NCBI GenBank assembly: GCA_902798545.1
Contig: CADBWQ010000018.1
Coordinates: 1 to 45,958, forward strand
Direction of reading: 5' to 3'
Length of the DNA stretch: 45,958 bases
Source: Oscillospiraceae bacterium
GTDB taxonomy: Bacteria; Bacillota; Clostridia; Oscillospirales; Oscillospiraceae
Below are positions 150 through 6,650 of this stretch, piece by piece. Position 1 is the stretch's first letter. Every line of letters starts with the position of its first letter. The notes under the pieces are model-generated. The model was not told the DNA's origin, did not search any database, and worked only from the letters and a program-made list of their open reading frames with translations. Both the position numbers and the translations under genes were made by a program.

Positions 150-1937
150 TTACATGCAGACTTCGTCTTCAAACTCTACCAGGGACGGGTCAACTGGCTC
201 TGCGCGCATGACGGTGCGCATGTACTCGTTGACCTTGTCGCGCATGGTACGGCGGGAGACAGTACGCGGATCCATCAGGTCGTGTTCGACCCAGATCAGG
301 TCGTAGCCACGCTGACGGCCCTGCTCATCCAGAAGCCCCTGAACGGTCGCCATGTTCTTGCAGGCGACATTCTGGTACATGATGACAAGCTTGGCGTTCC
401 AAGCTTCACACTGGCGCCAGCACTCATCGACGACGTTCTGGTAGCCGCCGTTGGTGTGGCGACGCATGACCATGCGCTCATACAGGCGGGCCAGGTCGCG
501 CAGTGCCTCTTCCTTGTCCTCGGTCTCGAGATGCTTGGTGTAGTTCAGGGACTCCATTTCAACCAGGACATCAATGCCCCAGCAGTTGGCAAGCCAGTTG
601 GAGAAGTTGGCGTAGTAGTGGGCCGGACAGGACCAGACCAGTGCGCGGTACTTCATCTTTCTCTCCGGCCAGGCAGTCTCACCGTTTTCGTAGGCCCTCA
701 TCAGTATATTGTTCATTTTCTGCATCGCAGGCAGGACACGCGGATCGATACCGCCGTCCATCTCATAGTTCCACTTGCGGAAGAGCTCATAGCTCGGTCC
801 GATGAACTGCGGGCGTGAAGATTTGTTAATCTCCCATTTCTGAAGCTCAAGGTCGGTCTCCTGGTTGAAGCGCTTCATACACTCGAAGTAGTGGTCCCAG
901 TTCCACTTGGCTCCGGTAGCATCCTCGATGGCTTTGATGCAGGCCTTGATGTCGTCGGCCCCCATCTGTACGGTCTCTTCATCCATGTAACGCACCGGGA
1001 AGCAGAGGTGGAAGACCGGGATGTTCGGAAAGCGGCGGGAGAAGTATGAGCTCGCCATGGTTGATCCGTCGCATGGCATGGAGGAGGAAATGAACAGGGA
1101 GCCCATATCCGGCAGTGCGTCAATAACAAGGGCGCCGCATTCGGAGGACGGAACCGGGCATGTGTCGGAGGGCAGGCCGTAGCTCTCGACCGCATCGATG
1201 TACGGAATGCAAACCAGCTGGTCGATCTCGGAGACCAGGAACATGGGCAGCAGCTGGTGCGGGATCGCCAGCAAATCCGGGAAGCCGGCAGCGATCTGGC
1301 CCATGGTCATCTCGTCGAAGGTAAAGAGCATCTTGTTGAGTTCGGTGCTGTTACCGTTTTTGCGATCTGCCTTGGAGAGAAAGACCAGGTTTTCTGCAAC
1401 ATACCGGAAGATCTCGTAGGTTGCGGCATGGCTCATACGCAGATTTGAACCACGCAGCCCAAGGATATTCTTGTCCATGAAACCGTGGCAGCAGAAGTAG
1501 GAGATCATCCATCGGTACCAAAGCGCACTGTTCATGGCGGGGATCAGATCTTTGGAGAAAGTCATGAGGAGCATGCCCCACATTCTCGCCCATTCATAGA
1601 AGTCATAGGCTGTATCCTTCACACCTCGCCATTCGCGGCGGACAGTGGCCATGGCACCCTTGCGGTAGAGCCGACCAAGACTGCGCTCTCCGTTGACTAC
1701 ACGGTCCCACTTTTCGCTGTTGTCAAGAGCCATGAAGTCCTTATACTCGCCCTTGATGCGTTCGCCGTCGGCCTTCAGTATCTCGACAATGCCTTCGCCA
1801 AATCCTTTCCAGTCGGTCTTCTTCAGCATGTTGCCAAAGATGCCCATGACTTCCTTCAGGTTTTCACCCTGTTTTTTCCATTCGATATTGTCTTTGGCTT
1901 TCCAGAATTTTGGATTGGGGTATTGCACCTTTGCCAT
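150..1937 (-). CDS. 2-hydroxyacyl-CoA dehydratase / benzoyl-CoA reductase-type subunit (large, 595 aa)
   Basis: Long member of the HGD-D family (2-hydroxyglutaryl-CoA dehydratase D-component; also BcrB/BcrC). These proteins carry a [4Fe-4S] cluster held by cysteines and form a heterodimer that eliminates water from 2-hydroxyacyl-CoA through a ketyl radical, or reduces an aromatic acyl-CoA. Candidate cluster cysteines lie near residues 287 (MPCDGS), 437 (SCPAHYY) and 526 (VACKNM). At 595 residues it is longer than most subunits (about 380-480), with an extra charged N-terminal region of roughly 100 residues. Its ATG shares one base with the stop of the preceding subunit gene (TAATG), so the two are probably translationally coupled. 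The substrate cannot be named, because no CoA-transferase or acyl-CoA dehydrogenase is in view. Confidence 0.82.
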   Translation of the reverse strand: MAKVQYPNPKFWKAKDNIEWKKQGENLKEVMGIFGNMLKKTDWKGFGEGIVEILKADGERIKGEYKDFMALDNSEKWDRVVNGERSLGRLYRKGAMATVRREWRGVKDTAYDFYEWARMWGMLLMTFSKDLIPAMNSALWYRWMISYFCCHGFMDKNILGLRGSNLRMSHAATYEIFRYVAENLVFLSKADRKNGNSTELNKMLFTFDEMTMGQIAAGFPDLLAIPHQLLPMFLVSEIDQLVCIPYIDAVESYGLPSDTCPVPSSECGALVIDALPDMGSLFISSSMPCDGSTMASSYFSRRFPNIPVFHLCFPVRYMDEETVQMGADDIKACIKAIEDATGAKWNWDHYFECMKRFNQETDLELQKWEINKSSRPQFIGPSYELFRKWNYEMDGGIDPRVLPAMQKMNNILMRAYENGETAWPERKMKYRALVWSCPAHYYANFSNWLANCWGIDVLVEMESLNYTKHLETEDKEEALRDLARLYERMVMRRHTNGGYQNVVDECWRQCEAWNAKLVIMYQNVACKNMATVQGLLDEQGRQRGYDLIWVEHDLMDPRTVSRRTMRDKVNEYMRTVMRAEPVDPSLVEFEDEVCM

Positions 1938-3142
1938 TATGCTTTGCCCTCCTCTTTATGAATGCGCTTAATTTCAAGCGACTCGACAAATGCCTGTACA
2001 CGGGTCCGGAGCTGGCCGGAATTGCCGTTGTTGTACAGTCTGTCGATGGAGAGAACCGGCCAGCCATACTCATCGTGCATGATATGGCTGACGAGTGCGC
2101 GCTCAAAGCCCCAGTAGTCGCAGTACTTCATCTGTTCATAGATAATACCTTCAGCGCCAAACTCCTTGGCCAGGCGGTCTGACGTCTCACGCCGCTGGAG
2201 GACCTTCTCGTCTGAGATATAGCGGGCGCACTCAGAGACCTCCATATAGTGGCGGCATATCTGGGTCAGGGCGTCCTCGTCATCGTTGAGCTCGATCACC
2301 TCGCGGCCTGGCGTGGAGCCAAAGCAATAGCGGTCGGAAACGACCAAAGCACCACAGCCCTCGATCAGCTTGGTAAGGTTCGGATCGTCGATTTCGGAAC
2401 CGACAATGGCTACTCTGGCGCGGTACGGGTTCTTTTTATCAGGTTTTCTCTTCTTAAGCTCTTCCAAAGTTTCCTGCAGATAGGGCAGGATCTCGCTCTT
2501 TGGACAGACATAGGTGACGAGGTTCAGAACATGGAACTCATAGCCCGTGATCACAGGGTTCTTTGCCTTGCGCATCTCGCGGATCTCAGAGATAATCTTA
2601 CACACCTCGTTGTGCTCTTCCACGGCTTTGCGGATCGCTGAATCAGAGGTATCAACACCGAAGACCTCCTGCAGACGGTCCAGCACACGGACGCGCATCT
2701 GCCGACGATAGCCTTCCACTGTGTAGTCCGTAATCTTGAAAGGCATATCACAATGGGTCACGAAGAAATCCGGCTTATCGTTGACCCTCAGGATCTCAAA
2801 GTGCTCCATCGAGCGGTTCATCATCGAACATGCATCCACACCGATCAACGCATCCAGGAACTGATACCCGCCTTCGATGGCGCGCTCCAGCAGAGCGCGT
2901 GCAAATTCACAGGTATAGTTGGACATATAGTAGGTTGCGATGTCGATGGAGCCGGTATTGGGAGCGCGGAGCCTGGTTGAGAAGCAACGGTCGACATTCA
3001 GCAGAACCTCCGGAATATGAAAGCAGGTATAGCCTAGGCAGATTCCGCCGTCCCCTTTCTTCTTCTCCACCAACTCGTTGTCCGCATTCTCAAGCAGACG
3101 CTCAAAGTAGATCAGATGTTTTAGATCTTTCAAATGATACAC
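1937..3142 (-). CDS. 2-hydroxyacyl-CoA dehydratase / benzoyl-CoA reductase-type subunit (401 aa)
   Basis: Second HGD-D family subunit, of typical length. The N-terminal half has the family-like segment GYTCFHIPEVLL (Cys40 approx.), followed by DACSMMNRS (Cys105) and, near the C-terminus, MKYCDYWGFE (Cys341). This three-cysteine pattern is expected for the [4Fe-4S] cluster of HgdB/BcrC-type proteins. It would pair with the 595-residue subunit encoded immediately downstream. The gene begins 8 bases after the CooC-like ATPase stop, so the four genes read as one transcript. Whether the pair is a dehydratase, a reductase or one of the uncharacterised family members is open. Confidence 0.85.
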   Translation of the reverse strand: MYHLKDLKHLIYFERLLENADNELVEKKKGDGGICLGYTCFHIPEVLLNVDRCFSTRLRAPNTGSIDIATYYMSNYTCEFARALLERAIEGGYQFLDALIGVDACSMMNRSMEHFEILRVNDKPDFFVTHCDMPFKITDYTVEGYRRQMRVRVLDRLQEVFGVDTSDSAIRKAVEEHNEVCKIISEIREMRKAKNPVITGYEFHVLNLVTYVCPKSEILPYLQETLEELKKRKPDKKNPYRARVAIVGSEIDDPNLTKLIEGCGALVVSDRYCFGSTPGREVIELNDDEDALTQICRHYMEVSECARYISDEKVLQRRETSDRLAKEFGAEGIIYEQMKYCDYWGFERALVSHIMHDEYGWPVLSIDRLYNNGNSGQLRTRVQAFVESLEIKRIHKEEGKA

Positions 3143-3150
3143 CTCTTCTT

Positions 3151-3915
3151 TTAAAGAATTTCCATTTTCTGGAGTGCTTCCCTTACTCCCCGAAGCATCA
3201 TGGAATCTTCAGGCAATTCCAGAATGCTTCCTCCCTTGATGTCATTCTCGGCAAAGGCCGCGTCCGCCGGAATATCGGCGAGAATCTCCACACCGGGAAC
3301 TACCATCAGCTTTACAAGTTCAGGATTCGTCACGCGGTTGATGATTGCACCGACGCGCTCATAGGCGATCAGTTCGTCCGCGACACTCTTGATGGTTGAG
3401 ATCACCTGTCCTCCCTTTTTGCTTTGGTCCGTGATCAGGAGAAGATGCGTAACCTTCTCCATGACTCGGCGCTGGATCTGCTCAATGCCCGCTTCCCCGT
3501 CGATTACGACAAAATCAAAACTGCTTGCAAGGAGCCCAATCACTTCCTTCAGGTAGGAATTGACCTTGCAATAGCATCCGGAACTCTCCGGGCGGCCGAT
3601 CGCCAGAAAGGCAAATCCTGGCATTTCAACCAGCGCGTCAAATATACGAAAACGGGCTTCACTGAGAAGCTCAAGCGCTTCTCTCGTCTCTCCGTTTTCA
3701 ACACTGTCTACAATGCTCATGCGGATATCGTCCAATGTGAGCTTAACATCCACGCCAAGAGCAACGGACAGACCGACAGCCGGATCGGCATCAATGGCAA
3801 GGATCTTCCTGTCCGGGAACATCTCTGTGAGAAGTCTGACGATACAGGCACAGATCGATGTCTTGCCTACACCGCCTTTGCCGGCAACCGTAATAATCTT
3901 GGCCTTGTTCTCCAT
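3151..3915 (-). CDS. CooC-like MinD/ParA-family ATPase (putative metal-centre maturation factor)
   Basis: A P-loop ATPase of the SIMIBI class with the deviant Walker A GKGGVGKTS (residues 12-20) including the signature lysine, a DADPA motif near residue 43 and VVIDGEAGIE near 137-145. A CxC motif (CYC, residues 114-116) is present. In CooC1, the nickel-insertion ATPase of carbon monoxide dehydrogenase, an equivalent CxC pair binds metal at the dimer interface, so this is a true CooC-type rather than a cell-division MinD. I start at the ATG at 3915, which has AGGGG eight bases upstream; a GTG at 3924 would add three residues. It is the first gene of the dehydratase operon, and no CO dehydrogenase gene is visible. 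An accessory role in maturing or energising the Fe-S enzyme is inference. Confidence 0.82.
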   Translation of the reverse strand: MENKAKIITVAGKGGVGKTSICACIVRLLTEMFPDRKILAIDADPAVGLSVALGVDVKLTLDDIRMSIVDSVENGETREALELLSEARFRIFDALVEMPGFAFLAIGRPESSGCYCKVNSYLKEVIGLLASSFDFVVIDGEAGIEQIQRRVMEKVTHLLLITDQSKKGGQVISTIKSVADELIAYERVGAIINRVTNPELVKLMVVPGVEILADIPADAAFAENDIKGGSILELPEDSMMLRGVREALQKMEIL

Positions 3916-4016
3916 ATTCGTCACCCCTGTCCAGATGTGAAGCAGGCTACGTCCGGCAAGCCGTCTGCAGTAAAGCGCATATATACATACTACTTCACTC
4001 TAAATATATCGTTCGT

Positions 4017-4045
4017 ATTTTAACACATGCAGGGGAAACACGCAA
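4017..4045 (-). promoter_or_regulatory. Sigma-A-type promoter of the dehydratase operon
   Basis: On the minus strand TTGCGT (4040-4045) and TAAAAT (4017-4022) are 17 bases apart, about 100 bases upstream of the CooC-like ATPase start. The surroundings are strongly AT-rich, unlike the genes. Read by eye from consensus only. Confidence 0.5.
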
Positions 4046-4134
4046 GATGTACATAACAAAAATGAAATAACGCTATTTTTTCGTGCAATTTGCAAAACAG
4101 GTGGCATCGTTTAGACATCAAAAAATGTCTGTAC

Positions 4135-4177
4135 AAAAAATCTGGCATCCAGAATGAACTGCATTCCAGATGCCAGA
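4135..4177 (-). terminator. Rho-independent terminator after glmM
   Basis: On the minus strand a long hairpin (outer arms TCTGGCATC and GATGCCAGA, inner arms GAATG and CATTC, with a 2-base internal mismatch) is followed directly by six T. It lies about 65 bases past the glmM stop and before the promoter of the dehydratase operon. Confidence 0.85.
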
Positions 4178-4197
4178 AAAGCTGCACAATAAAACTC

Positions 4198-4227
4198 AAA
4201 AAATTTTTGTTTGTTTTACCAAACAAA
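4198..4227 (-). terminator. AT-rich hairpin directly after glmM, possible first terminator
   Basis: On the minus strand an 8-bp stem (TTTGTTTG with CAAACAAA, 6-base loop) is followed by AA and six T, beginning about 15 bases after the glmM stop. The stem is all A/T apart from one G/C position per half-turn, so it is weak; the GC-richer hairpin further on is probably the main terminator. Confidence 0.45.
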
Positions 4228-4240
4228 CTTGCAGCATGTT

Positions 4241-5587
4241 TTATGCGAGATGTCCCTTTGCCTTGATCACATCAATCACCTGATCCACGTAGTTCTCACA
4301 GATCTCATCCGTTTCCGCTTCGACCATTACGCGTATTACCGGTTCGGTGCCTGACTCACGGACAAGAATCCGTCCCGTATCCCCCAATGCATCGGCAACC
4401 GTTTTTACCGCAGCCTGTACATCTGGATCATTTTGAGCTTCGGGTTTGCTCTTAACTCTGACATTTTTGAGTACCTGCGGATAGAACACCACAGGAGCAG
4501 CGAGCTCACTCATCGGCTTTTCTTTCGCCAACATGACTTCCATCAGTTTCAGGCTCGTCAGAATACCGTCACCGGTGGTCTCGTACTTCAGGAAGATCGT
4601 ATGACCGCTCTGTTCACCGCCGATACGATTGCCTGTCTGAACCATATTCTCGTAGACATACTTGTCTCCGACCTTTGTCTTTTCATATTCGATACCGGCC
4701 TTGTCCAGAGCTTTGTATAGACCGAAGTTGGACATAACGGTCGTGACTACTTTATTGTTAAGTAGCTTTCCTCGCTCCTTCATGTACAGACCGTAGATAT
4801 ACAGAGTGTGGTCGCCAGTGATGATGTTCCCCTTTTCGTCGACCGCGAGACAGCGGTCCGCATCTCCGTCATAGGCAAATCCAATATCCAGGCCATTGTC
4901 TACCACGAACTTTTGCAGATGCTCAATGTGGGTGCTGCCGCAGTCAGTATTAATGTTGAAGCCATCCGGGTCGGCGTTTATCACATAGGTTTTGGCGCCA
5001 AGCGCATCAAAGACACCTTTGGCGATCTGCCAGGCAGCACCGTTTGCGCAGTCCAGACCTACCCTGACATCCTTGAAGCTGTACTTAGACATGGAAATCA
5101 GGTGGCCGATGTATCGGTTGCGACCAGCCACATAGTCCACTGTCCGCCCGATGTTTTCTCTCTCTGCAACCGGGATCTCAATCTTGCCATCAATGTAGTC
5201 CTCAACCTTGAGAATCGTCTCCTCGTCCATTTTCTCGCCGTTGCCGTTGAGCAGCTTGATCCCGTTGTCATAATAGGGGTTGTGGGACGCGGAAATCATG
5301 ATACCGCAGTCGAAATCATCCACGCGGGTAATATATGCGACAGAAGGAGTCGTTGTCACATGCATGATGTAAGCGTCGGCGCCGCTGGCCATCAGGCCTG
5401 TGCAAAGGGCATACTCAAACATATAGGAGGAGCGGCGTGTATCTTTTCCGATGACAACTTTCGCCTTTTTTCCCTGATTCACGCCATAATACCAACCGAG
5501 AAAACGACCGATTGCAATCGCATGTTCAAATGTCAGATTTTTATTGGCCTCTCCGCGGAAGCCGTCTGTACCGAAATACTTCCCCAT
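4241..5587 (-). CDS. glmM: Phosphoglucosamine mutase GlmM
   Basis: Interconverts glucosamine-6-phosphate and glucosamine-1-phosphate on the cytoplasmic route to UDP-GlcNAc. The start MGKYFGTDGFRGEAN is the GlmM hallmark. The phosphoserine loop SASHNP is at about residues 99-104 (Ser101), the metal loop DGDADR near 240, the sugar loop GEQSGH near 325 and the phosphate-binding ESGTEPVIRVMVE near the C-terminus. The 448 residues match the family. I start at 5587, not at the further upstream ATG, because AAGGAGG lies at a good distance and the homology begins there. The upstream gene ends one base before this ATG, so both are on one transcript, which starts with a glmS-type ribozyme. Confidence 0.95.
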   Translation of the reverse strand: MGKYFGTDGFRGEANKNLTFEHAIAIGRFLGWYYGVNQGKKAKVVIGKDTRRSSYMFEYALCTGLMASGADAYIMHVTTTPSVAYITRVDDFDCGIMISASHNPYYDNGIKLLNGNGEKMDEETILKVEDYIDGKIEIPVAERENIGRTVDYVAGRNRYIGHLISMSKYSFKDVRVGLDCANGAAWQIAKGVFDALGAKTYVINADPDGFNINTDCGSTHIEHLQKFVVDNGLDIGFAYDGDADRCLAVDEKGNIITGDHTLYIYGLYMKERGKLLNNKVVTTVMSNFGLYKALDKAGIEYEKTKVGDKYVYENMVQTGNRIGGEQSGHTIFLKYETTGDGILTSLKLMEVMLAKEKPMSELAAPVVFYPQVLKNVRVKSKPEAQNDPDVQAAVKTVADALGDTGRILVRESGTEPVIRVMVEAETDEICENYVDQVIDVIKAKGHLA

Positions 5588-5588
5588 C

Positions 5589-6251
5589 TTATCTTTCCTC
5601 CTTGTGAATGATCTCGCCGTTGTCTTTCCAGATGCTGTTCTCAGGAACAACGCCCCTTACACAGGAGGTTGGATAGACATTACTGTGACGGCCGATAACG
5701 GTTCCGGGGTTGCAGACGGCATTGCAGCCCACTTCGACATAGTCTCCGAGCATAGCGCCGAATTTTTTGATCCCCGTTGTGAGCTGTTCCATGCCGTTAT
5801 GAACGACAACCAGCTTTTTATCACTCTTTACATTGGAGGTGATGCTTCCTGCGCCCATATGGCTGTAATACCCGAGAATACTGTCACCGACGTAATTGTA
5901 ATGCGGTGTCTGAACATGATCAAAAAGGATCACATTCTTCAATTCGACACTGTTACCGACTACACAGTCAGCACCGACAAGAGCGGATCCCCGGATGAAA
6001 GCACAGTGACGAACCTCTGAATTCGGTCCGATGATACACGGTGCGCCGAGATAAGCAGACGGAAATACTTTTGCCGTCTTATGGACCCAAACCTGTGGAG
6101 CGCGCTCTTCATATCCGTCATCAAGTGCAGGTCCAAGCTGTAGGATCAATTCTTTGATGCCGCTGAGCGCCTCCCAGGGATAAATGAACTGCCGCAGATA
6201 ATCTGCCGCCAGCGTGTGTTCGAGATCAAAGAGATCCGTAATCGTATACAT
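5589..6251 (-). CDS. Left-handed beta-helix protein, UDP-GlcNAc pyrophosphorylase-related
   Basis: 220 residues with hexapeptide-repeat (left-handed parallel beta-helix) sequence from about residue 60 onward, including APCIIGPN, HCAFIRGSALVG, NSVELKNVILFD and MGAGSITSNVKSDK. This resembles the C-terminal acetyltransferase half of GlmU, without the nucleotidyltransferase half. Clostridial homologues are often annotated as UDP-N-acetylglucosamine pyrophosphorylase, which the fold does not justify, since no GxGTRM uridylyl loop is present. An acyl- or acetyltransfer role on a GlcN-phosphate would fit the pairing with glmM but is inference. The start at 6251 has AGAAGGAG upstream; it ends one base before glmM. 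Confidence 0.82.
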   Translation of the reverse strand: MYTITDLFDLEHTLAADYLRQFIYPWEALSGIKELILQLGPALDDGYEERAPQVWVHKTAKVFPSAYLGAPCIIGPNSEVRHCAFIRGSALVGADCVVGNSVELKNVILFDHVQTPHYNYVGDSILGYYSHMGAGSITSNVKSDKKLVVVHNGMEQLTTGIKKFGAMLGDYVEVGCNAVCNPGTVIGRHSNVYPTSCVRGVVPENSIWKDNGEIIHKEER

Positions 6252-6301
6252 AAATGGCTCTCCTTCTGCGAGTTTTCTTCCCGCTAAACTGTTTATTATC
6301 C

Positions 6302-6441
6302 ATACAGTGACAAGAGAACCTCTGTTGCGGTTCTGATTCCGCTTTTTGCTTTCTCTCTGACGACACACTCATGCCGTGGCAGCATCCGCCGAGTCCTTCG
6401 ATCACTGCCAATCCTCGTCACCCGTTCACGGGCCTGGCGCT
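6302..6441 (-). ncRNA. glmS-type self-cleaving ribozyme/riboswitch (GlcN6P-responsive)
   Basis: Read on the minus strand. The conserved 5' segment A|GCGCC puts the predicted cleavage between 6441 and 6440. Then come GACGAGG (6413-6419), the P3 arms GGCAG (6405-6409) and CUGCC (6378-6382) enclosing AUCGA, and the invariant UCGGCGGAUG (6383-6392). A P4 hairpin ACGGCA/UGUCGU (6372-6377 with 6360-6365) follows, then an A-rich 3' domain with a GCGG/CCGC hairpin. Order and spacing match the glmS ribozyme core known from Bacillus and Thermoanaerobacter. The RNA starts from a strong promoter about 45 bases upstream of the cleavage site and ends about 50 bases before the ATG of the beta-helix gene. 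It was identified by eye; a covariance search would settle it. Confidence 0.92.
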
Positions 6442-6480
6442 AACAGTTCCTTCGGTCCTTCTGCCCGAAACGGAAACTGT
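6442..6480 (-). other. Leader hairpin just upstream of the ribozyme cleavage site
   Basis: On the minus strand ACAGUUUCC pairs with GGAACUGU (one bulge) and an inner UUCGG pairs with CCGAA. This makes a long hairpin ending two bases before the predicted scissile bond. It would be released on cleavage. Its role is unknown. Confidence 0.6.
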
Positions 6481-6494
6481 TTTAACGGTTTTGT

Positions 6495-6524
6495 ATTATA
6501 TAACGCATAACTTCACCGCGTCAA
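6495..6524 (-). promoter_or_regulatory. Promoter of the ribozyme-glmM operon
   Basis: On the minus strand TTGACG (6519-6524) and a perfect TATAAT (6495-6500) are separated by 18 bases. The start site would be near 6488, so the ribozyme has its own promoter, independent of polC read-through. Confidence 0.75.
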
Positions 6525-6579
6525 TCACAATTCCATGAACTTTCTATCCTGTTTTGCTTTTGAACAGTGAAGTTTTATG

Positions 6580-6602
6580 CTGCCCGGAAGCAAACCGGCA
6601 GT
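6580..6602 (-). terminator. GC-rich hairpin downstream of polC (weak terminator candidate)
   Basis: On the minus strand CTGCCGG pairs with CCGGGCAG (one bulge) about 50 bases after the polC stop. It is followed by CATAAAACTTC, not by a proper T-run, so intrinsic termination here is doubtful. Confidence 0.3.
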
Positions 6603-6650
6603 CGAAAAAACGCTCTTCTTTCTCAGTTCCAGCTGTTATCTCATTATCCG

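Follow-up and report, generated by a model that had tools for sequence, protein, structure and literature searches.

The window analysed here, a 45,958-nucleotide contig (C18) of an Oscillospiraceae bacterium, carries a genuine, full-length member of the known glmS ribozyme class. This ribozyme is part of a regulon of nagB, glmM and a left-handed beta-helix protein gene (LbH) that recurs in gut and rumen Clostridia. Among ribozymes that employ a metabolite cofactor, the glmS ribozyme serves as the standard case, and it has been treated both as a one-gene device and as a target for drugs. A 2011 survey by McCown is said to have counted 463 glmS ribozymes, all but two of them within glmS mRNAs. 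The RNA class is already known; no description of its nagB/LbH/glmM context turned up in the searchable literature. Searchable titles and abstract openings contained no glmS ribozyme on nagB or glmM; subscription papers lay mostly outside this search, and such a case may be in print.

A full-length glmS ribozyme in the window

The whole window was compared with Rfam by cmscan. The preliminary description had proposed a glmS-type ribozyme on the minus strand and named an Infernal comparison with RF00234 as its check. The match found is significant and full-length, covers positions 1-167 of the 167 in the model with an E value of 2.4e-13, and scores well above the gathering threshold (Table 1). 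On the minus strand, the scissile A is predicted at base 6441 and G1 at base 6440; the cleavage site at 6441/6440 given earlier agrees with this reading. The promoter described upstream of the ribozyme was also recovered, as a sigma-70-type site. It is the top one of six such sites in 3900-6650, where shuffled sequences give a mean of 3.6, and the consensus match alone is no proof of promoter function.

Covariation was scored over 38 sequences of the nagB/LbH/glmM ribozyme subfamily. RNAalifold predicted 31 pairs, 15 of them with changes on both sides, from the same alignment on which the covariation was scored, and covarying helices as expected of a glmS ribozyme were found in these 31 pairs. 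Paired cells made up 97.7% of the total, compared with 32.9-47.0% when the partners were slid. Cells with changes on both sides numbered 125 versus 37.2 in shuffles, and none of 500 shuffles reached this value. The count of pairs with double changes was a weaker signal (15 versus 12.5, reached by 26 of 500 shuffles). AGCGCC, ACGAGG and TCGA were invariant in all 38 sequences; we take them to be the scissile A and the conserved core residues of the glmS ribozyme. A covariance model, R1, was built on these 38 sequences, and the window element, itself one of the training sequences, scored 152.7 bits with it.

Table 1 Features of the ribozyme-headed operon in the window.
Feature	Position	Strand	Evidence
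glmS-class ribozyme (RF00234)	6302..6452	-	66.9 bits, gathering 37; covariation over 38 relatives
Promoter-like site, sigma-70 type, TTGACG-18-TATAAT	6495..6524	-	Consensus scan, 11/12 matches
AAGGAG, likely LbH ribosome-binding site	6260..6265	-	Read off the sequence
LbH, left-handed beta-helix (hexapeptide) protein, 220 aa	5589..6251	-	PF00132, 42.6 bits
glmM, phosphoglucosamine mutase, 448 aa	4241..5587	-	TIGR01455, 544.9 bits; equivalog cutoff 447.55
Terminator-like hairpin ending the LbH-glmM operon	4141..4177	-	16 pairs, then TTTTTT

Genes behind the window ribozyme

The downstream genes had been described as a beta-helix protein and glmM, and the protein family matches identify them as such (PF00132 for LbH, TIGR01455 for glmM). 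The C-terminal part of LbH matched TIGR03992 at 137.5 bits, short of the cutoff of 292.1. LbH matched the GlmU family TIGR01173 at 49.6 bits (cutoff 366.85) over the C-terminal half only, which does not place it among whole GlmU proteins. The best solved relatives are PDB 2ggo and 5z09, with E values of about 1e-21. The similarity of LbH is to the acetyltransferase half of archaeal GlmU, and no match to the uridyltransferase half of GlmU was found. These similarities point to LbH as a probable stand-alone GlcN-1-P acetyltransferase.

The gene next to the ribozyme is LbH, followed by glmM, and not glmS, the context that is typical of the class without defining it. As had been noted, the window holds no glmS; the only full-length glmS match of this genome lies on another contig (C29:28978-30840). 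The exact order ribozyme-LbH-glmM without nagB was found, among the loci examined, in the window genome only. Flanking synteny was compared for clues to when the window operon lost nagB, and the window polC was present in no other genome's locus. Past the operon terminator, positions 150-3924 encode two proteins like the D component of 2-hydroxyglutaryl-CoA dehydratase and a ParA/MinD-like ATPase.

Another ribozyme upstream of nagB on contig C6

When the fetched nagB region of the genome was run through cmscan, a second glmS ribozyme was found at C6:23830-23978, directly upstream of nagB, with 52.5 bits. The gene most commonly found behind this ribozyme subfamily, nagB, is thus absent from the window operon and present behind the C6 copy. 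Its product, glucosamine-6-phosphate deaminase, scored 372.4 bits with TIGR00502, above the equivalog cutoff of 236.9. The C6 NagB has NMDEY, GVDGH and AFNEP in common with 7lqm, and these are presumably active-site stretches with a catalytic role. The C18 and C6 ribozymes are 83.5% identical across their aligned part. The glmS region on C29 showed no RF00234 match even at E values up to 5, and no R1 match.

The C6 copy rules out the assumption of one ribozyme per genome. The initial genome search had given a single RF00234 match in this genome, and cmscan of the nagB region added the second. Because the first-pass search misses some copies, the ribozyme counts of the family scan below are lower bounds. 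The preliminary description had left a choice between a new member of the glucosamine-6-phosphate (GlcN6P) regulon and a relocated or duplicated element. Each is right in part: the genome has two copies, on C18 and C6, and the regulon is recurrent.

Recurrence of the nagB/LbH/glmM regulon

RF00234 matches were found in 45 of 300 genomes of the window's family, 44 of them above the cutoff. Listing the gene behind each match in related genomes, a further check proposed at the outset, gave glmS as the next gene in 34 of the 45 genomes and nagB, LbH or glmM in 11. R1 matched 55 of 400 family genomes and split them into 15 at 125 bits or more and 40 at 89.4 bits or less. All 15 high-scoring genomes have a ribozyme directly before nagB (the G379 nagB is incomplete); nine of them had contributed to R1 training, while G131, G306, G322, G325, G353 and G379 lay outside it.

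With the window genome's nagB, the best 80 of 557 related loci were fetched. They come mostly from metagenome assemblies of the gut and rumen that carry the titles Lachnospiraceae, Oscillospiraceae, Ruminococcaceae, Erysipelotrichaceae, Clostridiales or Eubacterium. R1 matched 56 of these 80 loci at 103-158 bits, 28 within its training set and 28 outside. The other 24 had no R1 match, two of them with fewer than 250 bases before nagB; RF00234 was found in none of the 13 R1-negative loci that were also scanned with Rfam. Three cultured isolates carry the ribozyme by the Rfam model, namely NK3B98 (73.3 bits), NK3D112 (63.3 bits) and YRB3002 (59.2 bits). A one-off relocation is ruled out by the like regulon in 56 of 80 nagB loci and 11 of 45 ribozyme genomes.

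In the G131 ribozyme (L062:3148-3356), the CGGCGGATGCTGCCACGGC stretch is followed by a long insertion, with the core intact. Because of this insertion, it scored only 33.6 bits in Rfam, below the cutoff; with R1, whose training did not include G131, it scored 138 bits. The intact core and the R1 score rule out a chance match, and Rfam may undercount ribozymes that bear such insertions. One further genome, G223 (L006; contigs C99 and C155), carries a pair of glmS genes, and the ribozyme on one of them scores 89.4 bits with R1, the highest among the glmS-linked ones. This ribozyme is a possible link between the glmS-linked and the nagB-linked subfamilies.

Gene order behind the ribozyme

The ribozyme was always at the operon head in the 56 loci, while the order of nagB, LbH and glmM varied. 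The first gene was nagB in 36, LbH in 18 and glmM in 2. The orders were nagB-LbH-glmM (22), LbH-nagB-glmM (14), LbH-glmM-nagB (3) and others (10), and seven loci had nagB without LbH or glmM nearby. As these loci were picked by nagB, they are uninformative on how frequently members of the subfamily precede glmS, a question better judged from the family scan. In some nagB loci glmS was seen close by: upstream of the ribozyme in L094, L095 and L106, about 1.1 kb past glmM in L120 and L124, and directly before nagB in L079, L096 and L104, which have no ribozyme match.

In genome G036, an RF00234 match of 48.2 bits, which reaches only 17.7 bits with R1, precedes glmM-LbH and a distant nagB, whose product is 34% identical and under the nagB cutoff. 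G036 shows no RF00234 match around its glmS, and the ribozyme lies on glmS in the same-genus genomes G125, G236 and G274. G036 looks like an independent move of the ribozyme to a glmM-LbH-nagB group.

The ribozyme-linked NagB subfamily

The neighbourhood of nagB differed between the two groups of loci, some of which were shortened. No nagA was found within 2.5 kb of any of the 66 ribozyme-linked nagB genes, and 53 of the 66 were near glmM or LbH. Among 22 conventional nagB genes, 13 had nagA as a neighbour. The NagB proteins of other family genomes (L190-L211) were 39-43% identical to the ribozyme-linked query NagB.

A NagB tree was made by a quick method with midpoint rooting from 98 thinned rows. 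All 47 ribozyme rows used fell in one fully supported branch, which separates them from 13 of the 14 nagA-linked rows; the tree is no proof of a single origin of the ribozyme. The outermost rows of this branch (G109, G264, G224 and G268) have no ribozyme match. In G264 (L055), which belongs to the window's genus, a nagB of the ribozyme subfamily without a ribozyme match adjoins nagA. The branching would be compatible with acquisition of the ribozyme within this NagB subfamily, with G264 as a possible state before the gain.

At the genome level, nagA was above the cutoff in 6 of the 15 ribozyme-nagB genomes, the window genome among them, versus 15 of 18 genomes with a ribozyme on glmS and a nagB (p=0.014); five of the nine ribozyme-nagB genomes without nagA are only 82-86% complete.

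Presence or loss of glmS

The glmS gene is kept in 11 of the 15 ribozyme-nagB genomes, including the window's genome, and the genome-wide R1 scan found no second ribozyme on glmS in these 11. It was not found in G004, G131, G306 and G090 (the last 65% complete). This loss was not enriched, at 4 of 15 versus 50 of 385 other family genomes at E 1e-30 (p=0.13) and 4 of 15 versus 75 of 385 when the curated cutoff was applied (p=0.51). A strong association of the ribozyme with glmS loss is thus unsupported. In G004 (94% complete) and G131 (100%), neither glmS nor nagA was found, and therefore NagB amination or glucosamine uptake remain for these two. In isolate NK3B98, glmS was not above the cutoff and nagA was present.

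NagB was above the cutoff in 24 of 26 genomes without a glmS above its cutoff, taken from among the matches listed plus G131, G306 and NK3B98, versus 9 of 23 glmS-bearing genomes (p=1.4e-4), a non-random control set of 20 picked by hand in list order and three from the genus to which the window belongs. Of the 26, four (G002, G030, G054 and G368) hold short glmS pieces and are perhaps not truly glmS-less; excluding them, nagB was present in 21 of 22. A nagA search covered 23 genomes, made up of 20 glmS-less ones and three isolates, two of which have glmS. This gene was above the cutoff in 18 of the 23, NK3B98 included. The reading that NagB replaces GlmS in general is weakened by this result, because genomes with nagA may salvage GlcNAc.

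In G400 (NK3D112), a 61-aa open frame at C6:136933-137094 aligns first with glmS residues 1-35 and next with residues 587-607. It looks like a glmS copy minus its middle, and a full-length glmS is also present in G400.

Proposed mechanism and alternatives

On balance we lean towards the ribozyme as a GlcN6P-triggered OFF switch on an operon for UDP-GlcNAc synthesis, with a NagB able to run in the aminating direction. We infer that a ribozyme leader of this regulon would cleave itself in response to plentiful GlcN6P, and that the mRNA with the cleaved leader would then be degraded. Its decay would leave less NagB, presumed to run Fru6P + NH3 to GlcN6P, and less LbH and GlmM, which would pass GlcN6P towards UDP-GlcNAc if LbH has the predicted substrate. 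The C18 copy would switch LbH-glmM and the C6 copy would do likewise for nagB. High rumen ammonia would favour amination by NagB. Since the enzymes of the LbH-glmM operon would consume GlcN6P, its repression by GlcN6P would not be plain product feedback. In B. subtilis, cleavage of the glmS ribozyme leads to degradation of the mRNA by RNase, as stated in the accessible text of PMC7525490.

Several points favour the aminating direction. A GlcN6P-sensing OFF switch suits an enzyme that makes GlcN6P better than one that removes it, none of the ribozyme-linked nagB genes is near nagA, nagA is rarer in the ribozyme-nagB genomes than in those with the ribozyme on glmS and a nagB, and G004 and G131 have no detected glmS or nagA. 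It is weakened by the retention of glmS in most ribozyme-nagB genomes and its unenriched loss, by the nagA of six of these 15 genomes and of the glmS-less isolate NK3B98, by the 24 of 80 nagB loci that R1 does not match, and by the Akkermansia NagB described below. That in a group of gut and rumen Clostridia an ammonia-using NagB replaced or joined GlmS, and the ribozyme followed the activity and not the gene, including where glmS was not found, is a tentative proposal that we hold at somewhat less than even confidence.

It is unlikely, though of some weight, that NagB is catabolic, that amino sugars come from outside, and that the ribozyme trims these enzymes for another reason, such as sparing GlcN6P. 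A precedent is Akkermansia muciniphila, which has no GlmS and a NagB unable to form GlcN6P and which needs GlcNAc, according to the accessible part of PMC5902328. Many glmS-less family genomes have nagA and a conventional nagB, as the nagA search showed. Against a catabolic NagB stand the lack of nagA near the ribozyme-linked genes and the two glmS-less ribozyme-nagB genomes without nagA. Moreover, a GlcN6P-sensing OFF switch would stop a degrading enzyme just when its substrate is abundant.

The ribozyme could also limit LbH, GlmM and NagB so as to steady the amino-sugar pool whichever way NagB runs, with GlmS free of RNA control. This reading, which we regard as improbable, is consistent with the 11 glmS-bearing genomes that lack a second match on glmS and with a window ribozyme that governs LbH-glmM only; it gives no account of the glmS-less ribozyme-nagB genomes G004, G131, G306 and NK3B98. 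An ON switch is more doubtful still. Cleavage would remove an inhibitory leader or free the ribosome-binding site, and GlcN6P would induce the operon, which would fit a catabolic NagB and a GlcN6P-consuming GlmM; the B. subtilis decay route speaks against it, and no obvious inhibitory element was seen in the window leader when read by eye. That the window ribozyme is a decayed or chance copy without function, as its nagB-less arrangement in a single genome might suggest, is very hard to reconcile with its intact core and score, the two copies in the genome, the compensatory changes and the recurrence across genomes.

Relation to known systems and significance

The RF00234 ribozymes of B. subtilis and C. 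difficile share with the window element the class score, the scissile A/G, the core and the P1-P4 pairing. Unlike them, the ribozyme here heads nagB/LbH/glmM operons and occurs twice in the window genome. NagB is reportedly an alternative route to amino sugars in E. coli mutants, as described by Vogler in 1989. The title of that work, as cited in the accessible parts of PMC4562711 and PMC6386517, refers to amino-sugar synthesis by a catabolic isomerase. The E. coli route is a mutant situation, whereas here it is possibly natural and under ribozyme control. C. difficile has a single glmS ribozyme, upstream of glmS, according to the accessible part of PMC11477304. Akkermansia muciniphila is alike in being a glmS-less genome with nagB; a ribozyme on nagB goes unmentioned in the accessible part of PMC5902328.

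A sizeable nagB/LbH/glmM subfamily would show that the glmS ribozyme can spread to the rest of the pathway, and it would offer a natural test of NagB as the cell's GlcN6P synthase. Species without glmS that keep nagB under a GlcN6P-sensing OFF switch would be otherwise hard to explain. The cultured isolates NK3B98, NK3D112 and YRB3002 carry the arrangement, which makes the question directly testable. Some related gut and rumen bacteria may make glucosamine-6-phosphate by another enzyme.
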